The position numbers and the translations under genes were made by a program. Shown here piece by piece: positions 19,691-57,370 of a stretch of DNA of 64,000 nucleotides (its first letter is position 1; each line of letters starts with the position of its first letter). The notes beneath the pieces are model-generated. The model worked only from the letters and a program-made list of their open reading frames with translations, was not told the origin of the DNA and did no database searches. Source of the stretch: Chryseobacterium turcicum (GTDB lineage Bacteria > Bacteroidota > Bacteroidia > Flavobacteriales > Weeksellaceae); the NCBI RefSeq assembly GCF_021010565.1, contig NZ_JAJNAY010000001.1, positions 434,001-498,000 on the forward strand, written 5' to 3'.

Positions 19691-19738
19691 TTTCTTACAA
19701 ATGTAAAGTTCAGTTTTACTTTTCCACTTTTTAAGAGC

Positions 19739-19840
19739 TTTTTCCCGCTTTTCACTCTATCTTTTGGGTTACGCCTCCGCTTCGCTCCGCCGCAACCCAA
19801 AAGGATGCCGTTGCAATCGGGGCTAGATTGGAAGTGATTT
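19739..19840. repeat. GC-rich dispersed palindromic repeat
   Basis: CTTTTGGGTT (19761-19770) and AACCCAAAAG (19794-19803) form a perfect 10-bp stem enclosing a GC-rich 23-base segment that itself reads nearly as a palindrome (CCTCCGCTTCGCTCCGCCG). It is flanked by TTTCCCGC on the left and GATGCCGTTGCAATCGGGGC on the right. This flank pattern is familiar from repeated intergenic elements in flavobacterial genomes. It stands out by GC content against an AT-rich background. No gene is present; it lies between a terminator and the thi promoter. Confidence 0.65.
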
Positions 19841-20025
19841 GTTTAAATATCTGAAAATCAAGTACAAAATTTGTCATTTTATAAGGATTTCAACTCGAAT
19901 CTTTCCAATATAAAATAAAAAGACATCTGCGTAATCTCTAAAATCAACGAGATAAAAAAAACAATATTTTCAAATATTTAAAACTTCCAGCCTCCATCAT
20001 CCAACTTCCATCTTTTTCAAAAAAT

Positions 20026-20056
20026 TTTGCACATTTCAAAAAAATAATTACCTTCG
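20026..20056 (+). promoter_or_regulatory. Promoter of the thiamin operon
   Basis: TTTG (20026-20029), 19 bases, then TACCTTCG (20049-20056), one mismatch to TAnnTTTG. Transcription would begin close to 20062, precisely where the TPP aptamer starts. Confidence 0.6.
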
Positions 20057-20061
20057 CTCCG

Positions 20062-20215
20062 AACTTTAGGGGTGTCTGTTGACAAAACAGGCTGAGACTT
20101 TACCCTTTGAACCTGATTTCTAGATCATACTAGCGTAGGAAAAAGTGAGATGACTTTGCTGTACATTCTATTGTACAATGATGGGCATTCCTAAAGTGTA
20201 TTTAAAAATTTAGGA

Positions 20216-20218
<3 letters not shown>
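20062..20218 (+). promoter_or_regulatory. TPP riboswitch (THI element) with start-codon sequestering expression platform
   Basis: Conserved TPP aptamer blocks are present in order: GGGGTG (20069-20074), CTGAGA, ACCCTTTGAACCTGAT and ACTAGCGTAGGAA. P1 is ACTTT (20063-20067) with AAAGT (20142-20146). Downstream, CATTCCTAAA (20186-20195) pairs perfectly with TTTAGGAATG (20209-20218), which contains the thiS ATG. The same left arm, CCTAAAGT (20190-20197), is also a perfect complement of ACTTTAGG (20063-20070), the 5' strand of P1. With TPP, P1 forms and the start codon is trapped; without TPP, P1's 5' strand can pull the left arm away. The aptamer is certain; the switching model is inferred from complementarity. 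Confidence 0.93.
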
Positions 20219-22829
<2,611 letters not shown>

Positions 22830-22982
22830 AGAATTTAAAATGTTTTTTGCCGTAAAAGTATCAAAAGAAATGATTGAAAAAAGCAACGAATTCAAGAATT
22901 TTTATAATAACAACTTTGACAAAGGTAATACGCTTGAGAACAAAACTTTCTCAAAATTTTTGGGATGTTAATTTAACGTGAA

Positions 22983-23313
22983 CTCGACAATACTTTATTG
23001 ATTTTCAACTATTAGCTATAATGCTTTTTCACGCAAAGTTTTTATTTAAACTAATCTTGATTTTAAGGAGCAAAGATTATCGAACAAGTCGATTAAGCTT
23101 GAAATATGCATGAGCTTTATCAAATCAATTCATTGATTCATCTTTGCTCCTTAAACTAAAACATGAAGAAAAATAAATCTTTGCGTGGAAAAATTCAAAT
23201 AATCATTTTTTAACAAAGTATTGTAAAGAAAAGCTGTCGATTTTAAGGTCAAAAAGTTATAAACTATCAAGTATTGTAATTAGTAATTTGAAAATCAAGT
23301 GATTACTGTCGAG
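22983..23313. repeat. 331-bp imperfect palindrome (MITE-like) inside the thi operon
   Basis: The ends (22983-23008 and, inverted, 23288-23313) match at 21 of 26 positions, starting CTCGACA and finishing TTGATTTTCAA. Inside are nested inverted repeats: ACAATACTTT (22987-22996) with AAAGTATTGT (23215-23224); TTTTTCACGCAAAG (23025-23038) with CTTTGCGTGGAAAAA (23179-23193, one extra base); and a perfect 16-bp pair TTTAAGGAGCAAAGAT (23062-23077) with its complement at 23140-23155. No transposase gene, coding frame or clear target duplication is visible. The whole 714-base gap 22830-23543 contains no supported gene. Confidence 0.65.
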
Positions 23314-23543
23314 CTTGCATTGATTTAGTAGATGACAAAAAATCCCCAAAAAGCCTACAGATTTCCACAGATTTTTTTAGTCAGCAATAAAAATCTTTGA
23401 TTTTTTAAACTTATATGTTCTTATCAACGAGATGTATTTTACTAAACTAATATGGCTTATGTGTCGAAAAAATTTGCAGCTTAAAAAATGTCAAATATTA
23501 ATACAAATTAATCTCTTTTGCTGAGGTTTTATTCAAATTAAAA

Positions 23544-24158
23544 ATGGAAAAATTACAATATATATCACAAGGATTTACAATTGAAGATCAGGAATTGAAT
23601 ATCAGAAAAGCACTCGATAACGGAATAAAATGGATACAGGTTCGTTGGAAAAATGCTGCTGAAAATGAATTGATCAAACTTTGTGAAATTTCAAGAAAAA
23701 TATGTTCAGATAATCAGGCTGTTTGTATGATCAATGATCATATTCATATTGCTAAAATGGTCGATGCAGACGGTGTTCATCTAGGTTTAAAGGATGAAGA
23801 AATAGTAACAGCAAGACAAATTTTAGGTGAAAACAAAATCATTGGCGGTACTGCAAATACGTTAGAAGATATCCTTCAAAGAATTGATGAAAACTGCGAT
23901 TACATCGGTTTAGGACCATTAAGATTTACTTCAACGAAAGAAAAATTGAGTCCGATTTTAGGTTTTGAAGGTTACGAGAAAATTATCAAAGAATTACAAT
24001 CAAAATCATTAGAAATCCCAAAAATATTCGCAATTGGCGGAATCATTTTAGAAGACATCGAAAGATTACAACAAATCGGAATCTACGGTGTGGCGGTTTC
24101 GGGACAAATTACCAATCAGCCATCTATTATTAACCAATTTAAATCAATCATTCAGTGA
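23544..24158 (+). CDS. thiE: Thiamin phosphate synthase
   Basis: A 204-residue TIM-barrel enzyme joining HMP-pyrophosphate and thiazole phosphate to thiamin phosphate. The family's active-site blocks are intact: QVRWK, MINDHIHIAKMVDADGVHLG, GGTANT, YIGLGPLRFTSTKE, FAIGGI and GVAVSG. Compared with the ThiE/TenI-like product at 22242 this copy keeps all pyrophosphate-binding residues, so it is taken as the true ThiE. It follows the 331-bp palindrome and is 26 bases ahead of thiG. Confidence 0.95.
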   Translation: MEKLQYISQGFTIEDQELNIRKALDNGIKWIQVRWKNAAENELIKLCEISRKICSDNQAVCMINDHIHIAKMVDADGVHLGLKDEEIVTARQILGENKIIGGTANTLEDILQRIDENCDYIGLGPLRFTSTKEKLSPILGFEGYEKIIKELQSKSLEIPKIFAIGGIILEDIERLQQIGIYGVAVSGQITNQPSIINQFKSIIQ

Positions 24159-24184
24159 TTGATGGACTTTAAAAAAATTAGCAC

Positions 24185-24961
24185 ATGAAAAATCAACCTT
24201 TAATTATAGCAGACAGAACCTTTGAATCGAGATTGTTTTTAGGAACCGGGAAATTCGGAAATCTTTTAGAAATGACAGATTCTATCATCGCTTCCGGAAG
24301 CGAACTGATGACAATGGCTTTAAAAAGAATCGATTCTCAATCTTCAGAAGATGATTTGTTGAACGCCTTAAAACCTACAAAATCTCACCTTTTACCCAAT
24401 ACTTCCGGAGCAAGAACTGCTAAAGAAGCAGTTTTAGCAGCACAATTGGCAAGAGAAGCCTTAGAAACCAATTGGGTAAAGCTGGAAATTCATCCTGACC
24501 CCAAATATCTGTTACCCGATCCGATTGAAACGTTGTACGCTACAGAAGAATTGGCAAAACTAGGATTTGTCGTGATGCCGTACATTCATGCAGATCCGGT
24601 TTTGTGTAAACGTTTGGAAGATGTAGGAACTGCTGTGGTAATGCCTTTGGGAGCACCGATTGGAACGAATAAAGGGTTAAGAACGTTAGATTTTTTAGAA
24701 ATTATTATTGCTCAAAGCAATGTTCCGGTTGTGGTAGATGCCGGAATTGGTGCCCCTTCCGACGCGGCGAAAGCGATGGAAATGGGTGCTGATGCGGTTT
24801 TGGTAAATACAGCAATTGCGGTTGCCAGAAATCCTGTGAATATGGCATTGGCTTTTAAAGAGGGCGTAATTGCGGGAAGAAGAGCTTTTGAATCAGGTTT
24901 GGGAGCGATTGCACAGCACGCAGAAGCATCAAGTCCGCTGACTTCTTTTTTGTTTGATTAA
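24185..24961 (+). CDS. thiG: Thiazole synthase ThiG
   Basis: A 258-residue TIM barrel, normal for ThiG. It assembles thiazole phosphate from deoxyxylulose phosphate, dehydroglycine and ThiS thiocarboxylate. The Schiff-base Lys lies in the [16 protein letters not shown] region. The phosphate-binding blocks [42 protein letters not shown] and the C-terminal Ser/Pro-rich ASSPLTSF are all present. The gene lies between thiE and thiH. A 92-base spacer with a small hairpin precedes thiH. Confidence 0.97.
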
Positions 24962-25002
24962 AGCAATGAATAAAAGAGTCTTGAAGGGACGATTTAATAA
25001 AG

Positions 25003-25021
25003 GATAGGATAAAATCCTATC
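25003..25021. repeat. Small palindrome in the thiG-thiH spacer
   Basis: GATAGGAT, AAA, ATCCTATC: a perfect 8-bp hairpin with a 3-base loop, within GAAGGGACGATTTAATAAAG-type sequence that looks like a fragment of a dispersed flavobacterial intergenic repeat. There is no T-run behind it, so it is not an intrinsic terminator. Confidence 0.5.
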
Positions 25022-25053
25022 AATAAATTAAAGACAACGGATAGCAGAATATT

Positions 25054-26172
25054 ATGAAGAGTTTTAAAGATTTTTTTGAAAAATATCAATGGGATGAAGT
25101 AAGGTCAAGGCTTGAAAAAGTGACGCTATCTGATGTGGAAAACAGTCTTCAGAAAAAGAATAAAACCATAGACGATTTTCTGAATTTTGTTTCGCCTATT
25201 GCTGCTCAAAAGCTCGAATTAATGGCGAAAATGACACAGCAACTTACCCAAAAACGTTTCGGAAAGACGATTCAGTTGTATGCGCCGTTGTATCTGAGTA
25301 ATGAATGTCAGAATATTTGTACATATTGCGGTTTTAGTTTAGATAACTCGATTAAAAGAAAAACGCTTTCTGACACAGAATTGATGATTGAGGCCACGGT
25401 TTTAAAATCGATGGGAGTGAATCACGTTTTGCTCGTAAGCGGAGAGGCAAATAAAATAGTTGGAATTGATTATTTTCTGAATGCAGTTCGCTTGTTAAAA
25501 CCTCATTTTGCTAATATTTCTATTGAAGTTCAGCCTTTGTCAGAAGAAGAATATCGACAGCTTCATGAAGCAGGCGTGAATGCCGTTTTGGTCTATCAGG
25601 AAACCTATCATCAGGAAGTTTATAAAGAGTATCATCCAAAAGGAAAAAAATCAAACTTTAATTTTCGTTTAGAAACACCAGACAGAATCGGCAAAGCTGG
25701 AATTCATAAAATGGGATTGGGTGTTTTGCTCGGTTTAGAAGATTGGCGCGTTGACAGTTTTTTCAACGCGCTTCATATCGATTATCTTCAAAAACAATAT
25801 TGGAAAAGTAGATATTCAGTTTCATTTCCGAGACTTCGACCTGCAGAAGGAATTATAGAACCCAATTTTATCATGACTGATAAAGATTTATTACAATTGA
25901 TCTGTGCGTATCGAATTTGGAATGAAGATTTGGAAATTTCTATTTCAACAAGAGAAAATGAGAAATTCAGAAATCATATTATTTCATTGGGGGCAACAGC
26001 GATGAGTGCGGCTTCAAAAACCAATCCCGGTGGTTATGCGGTGGATAAAGAATCTTTGGAACAGTTTGAAACCAGTGATGAAAGAAGTATGGATGAAATT
26101 AAAAGTGTCATTAAAAAATCCGGTTATGACCCAATAATGAAAGATTGGGATTCTGTGTATAGCGGAATTTAA
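25054..26172 (+). CDS. thiH: 2-iminoacetate synthase ThiH
   Basis: A 372-residue radical-SAM enzyme splitting tyrosine to dehydroglycine and p-cresol for thiazole formation. The cluster motif CQNICTYCGFS (CxxxCxxC) is at about residues 85-95, after YAPLYLSNE as usual in ThiH. The C-terminal part contains SVSFPRLRPAEG, ISISTRE and GATAMSAASKTNPGGY. Having ThiH rather than the oxygen-dependent glycine oxidase ThiO fits synthesis under low oxygen. It is followed by a 120-base gap and thiF. Confidence 0.96.
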   Translation: MKSFKDFFEKYQWDEVRSRLEKVTLSDVENSLQKKNKTIDDFLNFVSPIAAQKLELMAKMTQQLTQKRFGKTIQLYAPLYLSNECQNICTYCGFSLDNSIKRKTLSDTELMIEATVLKSMGVNHVLLVSGEANKIVGIDYFLNAVRLLKPHFANISIEVQPLSEEEYRQLHEAGVNAVLVYQETYHQEVYKEYHPKGKKSNFNFRLETPDRIGKAGIHKMGLGVLLGLEDWRVDSFFNALHIDYLQKQYWKSRYSVSFPRLRPAEGIIEPNFIMTDKDLLQLICAYRIWNEDLEISISTRENEKFRNHIISLGATAMSAASKTNPGGYAVDKESLEQFETSDERSMDEIKSVIKKSGYDPIMKDWDSVYSGI

Positions 26173-26292
26173 ATGTCGATATAATAAATTAAAAGATGCT
26201 ATCATTTGCTGAATGAAATGCTCTTGCGAACAAAAATGTGCAGAAAAATTTTAAAAATTAACCTAGCGTCTTTGCGTTAAAATTAAAAGGAA

Positions 26293-27003
26293 GTGAAAAA
26301 CGAAGATGTTTTTGCCCGCTATAGCCGACAGATTTTTATCGAAGAAATTGGTTTAGAAGGTCAAAAAAAAATAATGAATGCTAAAGTTTTGGTGATTGGA
26401 GCAGGAGGTTTGGGAAGCCCAGTCATTCAATATTTGGCAGCTGCGGGAGTGGGAACTTTAGGGGTGGTAGATTTTGATGAGGTGGAATTGCATAATTTAA
26501 ACCGACAAATTGTTCATAATGAAAATTCTGTTGGAAAATCGAAAGTAAAAAGTGCGGAAGAGTTTGTAAAAAAGCTTAATCATCAAGTGAGTTTCATAAG
26601 TTTTGAAAATAAGATTGATGAGTCTAATGCTTGGGAAATTATTTCGCAATTTGACATTATTATTGATGGTTCGGATAATTTTAAAACCAGATATTTAGTG
26701 AATGATATTTGTGTGAAATTAGAAAAACCATTGGTTTACGGAAGTATTTTGGGCTTTTCGGGGCAGGTTGCTGTTTTCAATTGTAATGGGAGTAAAAATC
26801 TAAGAGACTTATTTCCTGAACCTCCTTTTGATAAAAATCTTCCGGATTGCGATAGCCTTGGCGTTTTAGGAACCTTACCGGGAATTGTAGGCAGTATGAT
26901 GGCAGGTTTAACATTAAAACTTATCACAGATTTGCCGTTACCATTGAATAAAATAACATTGATTGATACCCTAAACTGGAGATTTCAGACGATAGATTTC
27001 TAA
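26293..27003 (+). CDS. thiF: ThiF/MoeB-family adenylyltransferase
   Basis: A 236-residue E1-like enzyme that adenylates the ThiS C terminus. The nucleotide site GAGGLGSPVIQYLAAAGVG, the DFDEVELHNLNRQ block and DGSDNFKTRY are intact. The CDSLGVLGTLPGIVGSMMA region matches the part of MoeB/ThiF before the C terminus. The second CxxC pair of zinc-binding MoeB proteins is not seen and there is no rhodanese domain. The start is GTG, since no in-frame ATG gives the conserved SRQIFIEEIG opening. It is the last gene of the thi operon, so ThiF rather than MoeB is the sensible call. Confidence 0.92.
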   Translation: MKNEDVFARYSRQIFIEEIGLEGQKKIMNAKVLVIGAGGLGSPVIQYLAAAGVGTLGVVDFDEVELHNLNRQIVHNENSVGKSKVKSAEEFVKKLNHQVSFISFENKIDESNAWEIISQFDIIIDGSDNFKTRYLVNDICVKLEKPLVYGSILGFSGQVAVFNCNGSKNLRDLFPEPPFDKNLPDCDSLGVLGTLPGIVGSMMAGLTLKLITDLPLPLNKITLIDTLNWRFQTIDF

Positions 27004-43336: not shown

Positions 43337-43548
43337 TAGTTTTGCCGCTGAAATAAAGGGGTGCTCCAAGCGGGCTGAGATTATACCCAATGAACCTGGA
43401 ACGGGTAATGCTGTTTAGGGAAATTAGATGAGCAATGAGTAATAAGCAATTAGTAATACATAAATTACTTATTACCAATCACTCATTACTTATATCATAA
43501 TCGCCCCTTTTATTCCATTAAATTTTTAAAATTTATAAGAATGAAAGG
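43337..43548 (+). promoter_or_regulatory. TPP riboswitch (THI element) upstream of a TonB-dependent receptor
   Basis: A -7 box TAGTTTTG (43337-43344) is followed by the aptamer: GGGGTG (43358-43363), GGGCTGAGATTATACCC, AATGAACCTGGAACGGGTAA and TTTAGGGAA (ends about 43423). P1 is weak. Downstream CCCCTTTTATT (43504-43514) complements AATAAAGGGG (43352-43361), the P1 5' strand, with one bulged base. Its part CCTTTTATT (43506-43514) also pairs with AATGAAAGG (43540-43548), which spans the receptor's ATG, with one G-U. This is the same mutually exclusive design as the thiS leader. A 24-base imperfect hairpin lies between. The aptamer is sure; the switch is inferred. Confidence 0.9.
43434..43487. 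repeat. Imperfect hairpin repeat within the second TPP leader
   Basis: Arms 43434-43457 and 43464-43487 match as inverted repeats at 19 of 24 positions around ACATAA. Units such as AATGAGTAATAAG and ATTACTTATTACC look like a variable dispersed intergenic repeat. In the RNA it would bring the aptamer close to the sequestering segment. Confidence 0.55.
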
Positions 43549-45673
43549 ATTGTTTTTTTTAGGACTTACCGCAAGTTCCTTGAGTTTTGCACAAACTCTA
43601 AATAATGACTCTCTGAAAGTCAGAGAAATTGAGGCTGTTAACTTTACCAAAAGACTTCCTGTTGCCAAAGAAATCATCAATGTTCAGAAAGACCTTGATG
43701 GTAGAAACCTCGGACAAGATTTACCTATTCTTTTAAAAAATCAAACTTCAATCATCTCTACTTCCGATGCTGGAAACGGGGTAGGTTATACCGGATTTAG
43801 AATTCGTGGAGTTGCAGGAAGAGGAATTAACGTGATGATGAATGGTGTTCCGTTCAACGATTCTGAAAGTCAGGGAACTTTCTTTGTGAATGTTCCTGAT
43901 TTGACTAGTTCGGCATCACAAATTGTGATTCAAAGAGGTGTGGGAACTTCCAATAATGGAGTTTCTGCCTTTGGAGCAAGTATTAATGTGATTTCAAAAG
44001 AACCTGAAGAAAAGTTTTATTTTAAAACAGATGATAGTTACGGTTCTTTTAATACGTACAAATATTCAGCTGAAATTGGCTCAGGAAAGTTCTGGAAAGA
44101 CCGTCTTTCTGTGATGGGAAGATATTCTTATATTCATTCTGATGGATATATCGACAGAGCTTTTTCAGATTTAAATTCATATAATTTTACAGCATTATTT
44201 GAAGAAGGAAAAACAAAACTTCGTTTGATGGCTTTTGGCGGCAAAGAAAAAACGTATCAAGCCTGGAACGGAATCGACAGACCAACTTGGGAAACAAATC
44301 CTAAGCTAAATTATTCTGGCCAGTACACAGACCTTTTCACAGGTGAGGAAAAATTCTATGATAACGAAACCGATAATTACAGACAAAATCATTATCAGTT
44401 TTTGTGGGAACAAAATATTAATGAACGTTGGAATCTTGAAACAACTTTGCATTATACAAAAGGAAGAGGGTTTTACGAAAATTATGTAAGGGTAAACGAA
44501 GAAGATGAGGATGCAACGCATTATTCTAACTATAATCTTCCTGTGTTTGAGCTAAATGGTGCTCCTGTAAATCAAACTGATTTTATTAGAAAAAAATGGT
44601 TGAATAATGATTTCTACGGCTTGGTTTCTACTTTGTATGGGAAATTTGAAAATGTAGATTTAAATTTTGGTGTAGTTGGAAATCAATATTACGGAAGGCA
44701 TTACGGAAATGTTACCGGAGTATATTTTCCCAATATCAATGAGTTTGAATATTACAGAAATCGTTCGGTAAAAACTGAAGTAGCAGGTTTTGCCAAAGCT
44801 TTAATTAAAGTAAATGATTTTGAATTCTTTGGAGACCTTCAATTAAGAAATATCGATTATGATACAAAAATCTTAATGGAAGGTGATGGTGAAGGTGCAA
44901 ATCTCAATAAAAACTGGTTGTTTTTTAATCCAAAAGCGGGAGTTAATTATAAGTTGGGTAAAGGAAAAGTGTTTTTCTCTTATGCTCATGCGCAGCGTGA
45001 ACCGAATCGTGATGATTTAATCTCTAATAATGATGTGAAATCAGAAAAACTTCACGATTTTGAAGCAGGATTCGAAAAACAATTTGGTAAAGTAGCTTTT
45101 ACAGCCAATCTTTATTATATGTATTATCTGAATCAGTTGGTTTTGAATGGTCAAATCAGTAACATCGGTGAGTTTATCAGAACCAATTCAGGGAAAAGTT
45201 ACAGAAGAGGAGTTGAGATTGGAGCTTTGGCAAAACTTTCAAAACAATGGGAAATCTCAGGAAATGTAAGTGTAAGTCAAAATCGAAACCTGGATTTCAG
45301 AATTAAAAATAAAACACAAATTACAGAACTTGGAAATACAGAGATTTCTTTTTCGCCAAATTTAATTGCTAATTTGAGTCTGAAATACAATCCAACTAAA
45401 AATTTCCACTTTGCTTTGATGAATCAATTTGTTGGAAAACAATATCTGGATAATACAGAAACCCAAAGTTTACAGCTTGATGATTATTTACTTACAGATT
45501 TTAATGCGCAATATGATTTTAAAATTGCAAAACATGAAGTTGCTTTAAAGCTTTTGGTTAATAATATTTTTAATCAGAAATATGTAAACAACGGTTATGT
45601 CTACAATGGTCCGGTTTATTTTTCTCAGGCGGGAACCAATTTTATGTTCGGAATCAGCTGGAAAATTCAATAA
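43541..45673 (+). CDS. TPP-riboswitch-controlled TonB-dependent receptor, probable thiamin uptake
   Basis: A 710-residue receptor with signal peptide (ends SFAQ), plug domain (PILLKNQTSIISTSDAGNG, FRIRGVAGRGINVMMNGVPFND, VIQRGVGTSNNGVSAFGASINV) and a 22-strand-type barrel ending in NFMFGISWKIQ. It lacks the CarboxypepD_reg domain and a SusD partner, as in classical TonB transporters. Control by a THI element makes thiamin or a thiamin precursor the likely substrate; such TPP-regulated outer-membrane receptors have been predicted before in Bacteroidota. The inner-membrane transporter is not in the window. Confidence 0.9.
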   Translation: MKGLFFLGLTASSLSFAQTLNNDSLKVREIEAVNFTKRLPVAKEIINVQKDLDGRNLGQDLPILLKNQTSIISTSDAGNGVGYTGFRIRGVAGRGINVMMNGVPFNDSESQGTFFVNVPDLTSSASQIVIQRGVGTSNNGVSAFGASINVISKEPEEKFYFKTDDSYGSFNTYKYSAEIGSGKFWKDRLSVMGRYSYIHSDGYIDRAFSDLNSYNFTALFEEGKTKLRLMAFGGKEKTYQAWNGIDRPTWETNPKLNYSGQYTDLFTGEEKFYDNETDNYRQNHYQFLWEQNINERWNLETTLHYTKGRGFYENYVRVNEEDEDATHYSNYNLPVFELNGAPVNQTDFIRKKWLNNDFYGLVSTLYGKFENVDLNFGVVGNQYYGRHYGNVTGVYFPNINEFEYYRNRSVKTEVAGFAKALIKVNDFEFFGDLQLRNIDYDTKILMEGDGEGANLNKNWLFFNPKAGVNYKLGKGKVFFSYAHAQREPNRDDLISNNDVKSEKLHDFEAGFEKQFGKVAFTANLYYMYYLNQLVLNGQISNIGEFIRTNSGKSYRRGVEIGALAKLSKQWEISGNVSVSQNRNLDFRIKNKTQITELGNTEISFSPNLIANLSLKYNPTKNFHFALMNQFVGKQYLDNTETQSLQLDDYLLTDFNAQYDFKIAKHEVALKLLVNNIFNQKYVNNGYVYNGPVYFSQAGTNFMFGISWKIQ

Positions 45674-57286: not shown

Positions 57287-57300
57287 CAAACGTTTATTAA

Positions 57301-57370
57301 CGAGGAAAAATTTGACCTGATTGCAACCTCTCTAAAAAAATGCTAAAACAGTAATTCTTTTTTAGCATTT
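57301..57370 (+). promoter_or_regulatory. SAM-II (SAM-alpha)-type riboswitch upstream of metK
   Basis: The core follows the SAM-II pattern: stem GAGG (57302-57305) with CCTC (57327-57330), loop ATTTGACCTGATTGCAA, and the downstream pseudoknot strand TGCTAAA (57341-57347). The loop's ATTT.ACC..ATTGCAA and the GCTAAA block are the conserved SAM-binding parts of this class. AAATGCTAAAA (57338-57348) can instead pair perfectly with TTTTAGCATTT (57360-57370), which would destroy the pseudoknot and so could be the alternative state. No U-run follows it, and how it controls metK translation is unclear. Aptamer identity rests on motif reading, not on folding. Confidence 0.82.

Follow-up and report, generated by a model that had tools for sequence, protein, structure and literature searches.

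The thiS leader

We analysed a 64 000-nucleotide stretch of the Chryseobacterium turcicum genome (assembly GCF_021010565.1, contig NZ_JAJNAY010000001.1, positions 434 001–498 000 of the forward strand), referred to as the window, in which a thiamine pyrophosphate (TPP) riboswitch aptamer sits upstream of the thiamine-synthesis genes thiS, then thiC, thiE, thiG and thiH. Positions are those of the window, and features lie on its plus strand unless stated otherwise. The aptamer (20058–20158) is a full-length match to RF00059 (cmscan; 64.4 bits, gathering score 54.3, model positions 1–105 of 105, with structure line) and has the 5′ and 3′ strands of P1 at 20063–20067 and 20142–20146. By sequence and structure the leader is a member of this family, and it presumably binds TPP. 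The first gene of the cluster, thiS (20216–20422), encodes a sulfur carrier protein and matches TIGR01683 at 48.3 bits (cut-off 37.45). Both identities had been proposed in a first-pass annotation of the sequence and both hold; the four strings on which its switching model was built were found exactly, each at the position given for it.

The aptamer is followed by a spacer hairpin (TGTACA-TTCTAT-TGTACA, 20160–20177), which is present in both the P1-forced and ON-forced folds, and then by a switching arm (20180–20197). This arm can pair with 20063–20080, which we assign to an ON state, or, via 20186–20195, with the thiS start, which we assign to an OFF state. The anti-start strand CATTCCTAAA (20186–20195) is, as had been noticed, the perfect complement of TTTAGGAATG (20209–20218), the last three bases of which are the thiS ATG (20216–20218). 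The start codon therefore lies within a sequestering stem of 10 base pairs. The other partner, 20063–20080, carries the 5′ strands of P1, P2 and P3. It forms 18 contiguous pairs with the arm in the minimum-free-energy structure of 20060–20260 and also in the forced-ON fold. The first-pass annotation had recognized this pairing at a length of 8 base pairs (20190–20197 with 20063–20070), and had described the competitor as the P1 5′ strand plus the first aptamer bases; the P1 strand is indeed included, but the helix continues through P2 and P3. Since the competitor spans all three 5′ strands, the aptamer as a whole, and not P1 alone, would be lost in the ON state.

The 18-pair helix overlaps both the P1 5′ strand and the start-pairing part of the arm, and so excludes P1 and the sequestering stem alike. 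The aptamer and start pairings are mutually exclusive because both require 20186–20195. One strand can serve both because of the likeness between the start box, GGAAUG, and the aptamer core, GGGGUG (GGGGTG at 20069–20074, inside 20063–20080): CAUUCC pairs with the former by Watson–Crick pairs and with the latter using two G–U pairs.

The dual pairing of the arm exceeds what chance would give. The 60-nucleotide platform was dinucleotide-shuffled 5000 times and a 16-nucleotide stretch was scored for pairing with the aptamer 5′ strand and with the start region; only one shuffle equalled the joint pairing. None of the shuffles reached the aptamer pairing alone, whereas 163 reached the start pairing alone.

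Conservation among relatives

A DNA search of 173 genomes of the genus matched 149. One match of 27 bases (genome G018) was not counted, leaving 148 genomes with a homologous leader plus thiS. Parsing retained 147 of these leaders (L129 was left out owing to its broken thiS frame) and, together with 18 from other genera chosen for sharing the CATTCC arm, they make up a set of 165 leaders in 116 distinct rows; the genus alone provides 101 distinct rows. Leaders of thiS that are of another type in the order Flavobacteriales (L220–L225, L229, L233, L234, L236, L254–L256 and L260) were omitted from the set.

Rows were anchored on ATTCC[TC][AG], a motif held by all 165 leaders. Over the 116 rows, 91.3% of the cells of the anti-aptamer helix (19 columns) are paired, compared with 39–51% when the strands are slid by 1–3 columns; for the start helix (13 columns) the corresponding values are 74.9% and 27–49%. 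Restricting the comparison to the 101 genus rows gives 91.4 and 76.0%, respectively. The nine-column core of the start helix is 95.9% paired over all rows, CATTCCT is found in 116 of the 116 rows and the GGAATG start box in 164 of the 165 leaders. Conservation of the three-way complementarity among relatives, on which the first-pass annotation had staked its model, was thus observed, with both helices paired above the slid controls.

Arm position B9 represents a trade-off: C (86 rows) pairs on the start side, whereas G (25 rows, including the window) pairs on the aptamer side. Compensatory changes occur in the P3 part of the ON helix, where the genus has U–A and 13 rows from three further genus codes have C–G. 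They occur also in the start helix, where CCTGA is accompanied by TCAGG. The sequence of the spacer hairpin varies between clades.

The riboswitch leader is retained in two genomes in which the thiS frame is broken or split (L129 in genome G016 and L128 in genome G147).

Folding and the order of transcription

For a transcript that stops directly after the arm, the computation favours the ON helix over the P1 state in all 165 leaders, with a median gain of −8.7 kcal/mol (range −17.2 to −5.7 kcal/mol; −10.5 kcal/mol for the window). Among 39 representatives the natural gain was reached by 54 of 1950 platform shuffles, and in 16 of the 39 by none of 50. In transcripts extended to +20 after the start, the median gap between the ON and P1 states is 0.7 kcal/mol (range −10.1 to 4.5 kcal/mol; at most 3 kcal/mol in 138 of the 165 leaders), and at +60 the median is −0.3 kcal/mol. 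The start region (−6 to +4) responds strongly to which state is imposed. At +20 its median unpaired probability is 0.02 in the P1 state and 0.67 in the ON state (0.18 versus 0.65 in the window), and the gain in opening exceeds 0.3 in 159 of the 165 leaders.

P1 by itself was rejected as the lever, the start staying closed when P1 pairs are penalised. The earlier model, with P1 as the built-in competitor, was correct in taking the pairings to be exclusive but not in the role that it gave to P1. The fold with and without a P1 constraint that had been suggested as a check gave a closed start in the P1 state, as anticipated, and a start that stayed closed with P1 penalised. The computed stabilities fit a switch that is decided while the polymerase crosses the platform.

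Proposed mechanism

The sequences, their conservation and the computed stabilities are established. Our model built on them is that the leader most likely functions as a TPP-responsive OFF riboswitch that controls initiation of thiS translation co-transcriptionally. Without TPP, the newly transcribed arm would invade the aptamer 5′ strand, forming 18 base pairs across P1, P2 and P3; this would dissolve the binding pocket and leave the thiS start region unpaired. If TPP has already bound when the arm emerges, the aptamer would hold and the arm would remain free. The free arm could then pair with TTTAGGAATG during its transcription, burying the start codon. Binding of TPP at this locus, the timing of these events, the blocking of the ribosome and the effect on expression are the inferred parts of the model.

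The choice of a start codon as the trapped element suits the phylum, as the first-pass annotation had argued. Bacteroidota mRNAs are described as being without Shine–Dalgarno sequences, with initiation tuned by structure and by an A at −3 (PMC6847099), and start-codon trapping is appropriate to such a system. No spaced Shine–Dalgarno site was found in the trapped strand, in which AGGA (20212–20215) abuts the ATG; the same GGAATG is shared by 164 of the 165 leaders. In these 164 leaders the base at −3 of the thiS start is G, contrary to the preference for A, which would fit a start box that is held by pairing and not by initiation strength.

Several observations weigh against this mechanism. 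The unconstrained ensemble leaves the start closed, with median unpaired probabilities of 0.03 at +20 and 0.02 at +60 (0.17 in the window); since the equilibrium ensemble behaves in this way, switching requires control by the order of folding. At +60 the opening in the ON state drops to 0.41 (0.40 in the window) and the gain exceeds 0.3 in only 107 of the 165 leaders. In some rows shuffled platforms equal the natural folding gain fairly often (8 of 50 for L265; 5 of 50 each for L174 and L239). Within the ON helix, 86 of the 116 rows lack pairing at pair 12/9, and five genus rows have C–A at pair 16/5. The latter pair has seven changes on each side, of which only about two of six pairs are matched; its Fisher p of 1e-9 ignores relatedness and was not taken as proof. 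A tree-aware test of covariation on the thiS tree ran mostly in the right direction, yet it was not significant, independent events being too few. The covariation check proposed in the earlier annotation yields compensatory changes without tree-aware significance, and covariation was dropped as a proof. It can prove nothing for three elements that hardly vary: P1, the start box and the core of the arm. Finally, only two of ten representatives of the other type of thiS leader in the order pass our test for the aptamer/arm/start triple, under which the joint score may be reached in no more than 5% of shuffles.

Of the alternatives to translational control by the start hairpin, that which survives best is that TPP acts mainly on the transcript level, by Rho-dependent termination or mRNA decay, with the hairpin being secondary. 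We regard this as unlikely. Precedents exist: the RNA level of the thiSEGCHF-tenI operon of Bacteroides thetaiotaomicron is reported to be lowered by thiamine (PMC5613172), and in E. coli thiC start sequestration is described as being coupled with Rho termination (PMC5234074). An intrinsic terminator in the platform was rejected, no terminator-like site being found in 19850–20450, although shuffles also average only 0.3 such sites and the scan does not address Rho. Against this alternative, too, stands the identity of the arm's second conserved partner: precisely the start box, with GGAATG kept in 164 of the 165 leaders.

A second alternative, that the start hairpin is a constant damper of translation and the complementarity to the aptamer a by-product of the likeness between GGGGUG and GGAAUG, appears improbable to us, more so than an effect on the transcript. 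It could account for the start being closed in every computed ensemble other than the forced-ON one, and the start pairing, which turned up in 163 of 5000 shuffles, is not very rare by itself. A by-product of the core motif, however, would not lead one to expect the arm to match P1 (AAAGT) and the P3 5′ strand in addition, nor an aptamer pairing that none of the 5000 shuffles reached and that is paired in 91.3% of cells. The 12 leaders of genus code g35 also argue against it: their start boxes have mostly lost the TTTA partner, but eight keep CCTAAAGT exactly and two keep the pairing by G–U, while the remaining two (L246 and L249) break one pair.

Regulation by a leader peptide or upstream start is most improbable: translating the short frame MMGIPKVYLKI (ATGATGGGCATTCCTAAAGTGTATTTAAAAATTTAG, 20178–20213), which overlaps the arm and stops two nucleotides before the thiS ATG, would melt the trap, and a short frame starts there in 73 of the 165 leaders, including that of the window, with an in-frame N-terminal extension in 14 more, but in 78 of the 165 the 14 bases that precede the arm core contain no ATG, and a conserved peptide was rejected on this count.

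Comparison with known systems

The closest parallel to the mechanism that we propose is E. coli thiC, for which the OFF state is described as sequestering the ribosome-binding site and start codon and the ON state as an anti-P1 pairing that blocks both P1 and the sequestering stem (PMC5234074). On our model the two share the TPP aptamer, a start that is sequestered in the OFF state, an alternative pairing in the ON state and the decisive role of transcription order. They differ in that E. coli thiC traps a ribosome-binding site of the Shine–Dalgarno type together with the AUG, whereas the thiS leader has no spaced Shine–Dalgarno site, and in that the anti-P1 region of E. coli thiC is given as C7–G16 and 146–154, compared with 18 base pairs through P1, P2 and P3 here (PMC5234074). 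The start box resembling the aptamer core is a further feature that sets the thiS leader apart. Probing of E. coli thiC by selective 2′-hydroxyl acylation analysed by primer extension reportedly showed the anti-P1 stem to be favoured in the paused complex EC-187 and not predominant in the full-length RNA without TPP, a picture like the folding order computed for the thiS leader (PMC5234074). The thiS leader is most likely an anti-P1 switch of the E. coli thiC kind in which the start codon replaces the Shine–Dalgarno site as the trapped element.

The E. coli tbpA (thiBPQ) leader is similar in that an ON-state anti-P1 stem disrupts the aptamer and the OFF control is translational, and different in its Shine–Dalgarno sequestration and GUG start (PMC11487190). 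Translational platforms with the ribosome-binding site inside the aptamer resemble our proposal in that the ligand occludes initiation; the thiS leader has instead a separate platform after the aptamer, with 57 nucleotides separating the start codon from the last base of the Rfam match, compared with a 15-nucleotide criterion for direct control (PMC2258182). Within the phylum, Bacteroides TPP aptamers are reported to precede a thiS operon, an outer-membrane transporter and pnuT, likewise without use of Shine–Dalgarno sequences (PMC5613172).

How a TPP riboswitch might work in a phylum free of Shine–Dalgarno sequences was called uncertain in 2017 (PMC5613172). For the thiS leader a model can be drawn base by base, with the start codon itself as the trapped element, and single and compensatory mutations in genetically tractable Flavobacterium would provide a test. 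Our literature search, which had most subscription papers and all preprints outside its reach, found no account of this start-codon design in these bacteria. The title of a preprint on Bacteroides TPP riboswitches (bioRxiv 867226, in the reference list of PMC7366714) states that they regulate transcription or translation.

Spread of the design in the phylum

The same triple test was applied more widely. Loci of the order were hand-picked among the matches listed, as 30 loci plus 40 places; L219 (no CTGAGA) was excluded, L129, L259 and L279 were unparsed and 210 of 213 leaders were kept. Clustering at 82% identity gave 46 representatives, of which 45 were tested (L269 was too short). For genes other than thiS a first-long-frame rule set the start, and seven starts were set by hand (L001, L251, L257, L263, L275, L281 and L282), so that the rows of these genes are less sure. 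The test was passed by 21 of the 45 representatives: nine of nine with the window's type of thiS leader and 12 of 36 others. Outside the order, three of 11 loci of the same class passed, as did nine of 28 elsewhere in the phylum (32 loci lie outside the class, of which L288, L291 and L318 were too short and L321 was unparsed), in a phylum-wide sample that is biased to high-scoring aptamers. The E. coli thiC leader fails the same test (pJ 0.30).

The shared-arm design is therefore frequent, not universal and not limited to this order. We tentatively raise a broader possibility, to which we give rather less than even chances: that TPP-regulated genes in Shine–Dalgarno-poor Bacteroidota have repeatedly evolved start regions that mimic the aptamer 5′ strand and compete for a shared arm, the arrangement being reinvented with unrelated sequences (at thiS, a TonB receptor, some thiM genes and others). 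Our estimate was lowered slightly, from not far below even, because so few of the other-type thiS leaders pass. If the mimicry rule is true, the aptamer could predict the start-region sequences of riboswitch genes in the phylum.

A second, putative switch in the window

Four TPP matches are present in the genome from which the window derives. One, in the window and below the gathering score (43349–43438, 38.8 bits), precedes a TonB-dependent receptor gene (43541–45673; Pfam Plug domain, 27.9 bits against a cut-off of 23.9). Its leader (43349–43548) contains a sequence-unrelated version of the aptamer/arm/start triple, with the arm CGCCCCTTTTATTC at 43502–43515 and the start box GAATGAAAGG at 43539–43548, in which the ATG occupies 43541–43543. 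The arm CCCCTTTTATTC pairs either with AATAAAGGGG (one bulge, aligned by eye) or with GAATGAAAGG. In 27 of 30 loci, including the window's own, the arm and the start box are readable; L413, L414 and L432 are without a full read. The joint pairing was reached in one of 5000 shuffles for thiS, five for the TonB receptor, 12 for an NMN_transporter (PnuC/PnuT-like) gene and 493 for thiM, the last being why the thiM leader of this genome fails the triple test.

The TonB-receptor leader DNA was matched in all 118 genus genomes searched, sometimes as the aptamer part only or in two pieces. The thiS leader is absent from 25 of the 173 genus genomes. This may mean that synthesis was lost and uptake kept.

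A SAM-II riboswitch (57296–57356) precedes metK (57428). The hairpin ATGCTAAA/TTTAGCAT directly after it would compete with the 3′ part of the aptamer, but it was rejected as an anti-aptamer element: the window and its closest relatives have it, and in most of the 30 loci read it is lost or changed.

The thi cluster and its surroundings

The genes following thiS form a block at 20434–27003. Matches above the cut-offs of NCBIfam models identify thiC (20434–22245), thiE (23544–24158) and thiH (25054–26172), and Pfam PF05690 (348.4 bits) identifies thiG (24185–24961). The block closes with a ThiF/MoeB-like gene (26293–27003; ThiF-like match below cut-off). A ThiE/TenI-like gene (22242–22829; TenI-like match below cut-off) follows thiC. 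It provides a second protein of this kind between thiC and thiE (22242–23543), with 61 bits to the TenI model, far under the cut-off, and about 700 bases without a clear gene separate it from thiE. The closest named relatives of thiS are Chryseobacterium records, for example C. balustinum with 97% ThiS identity.

Upstream of the aptamer, TTTG (20026–20029) and TACCTTCG (20049–20056) resemble a Bacteroidota-type promoter and may act as one, in which case the RNA would begin just before P1. Between the upstream gene and the riboswitch, a Flavo-1 RNA is found on the minus strand (19737–19828), with a loop insertion relative to the Rfam consensus.
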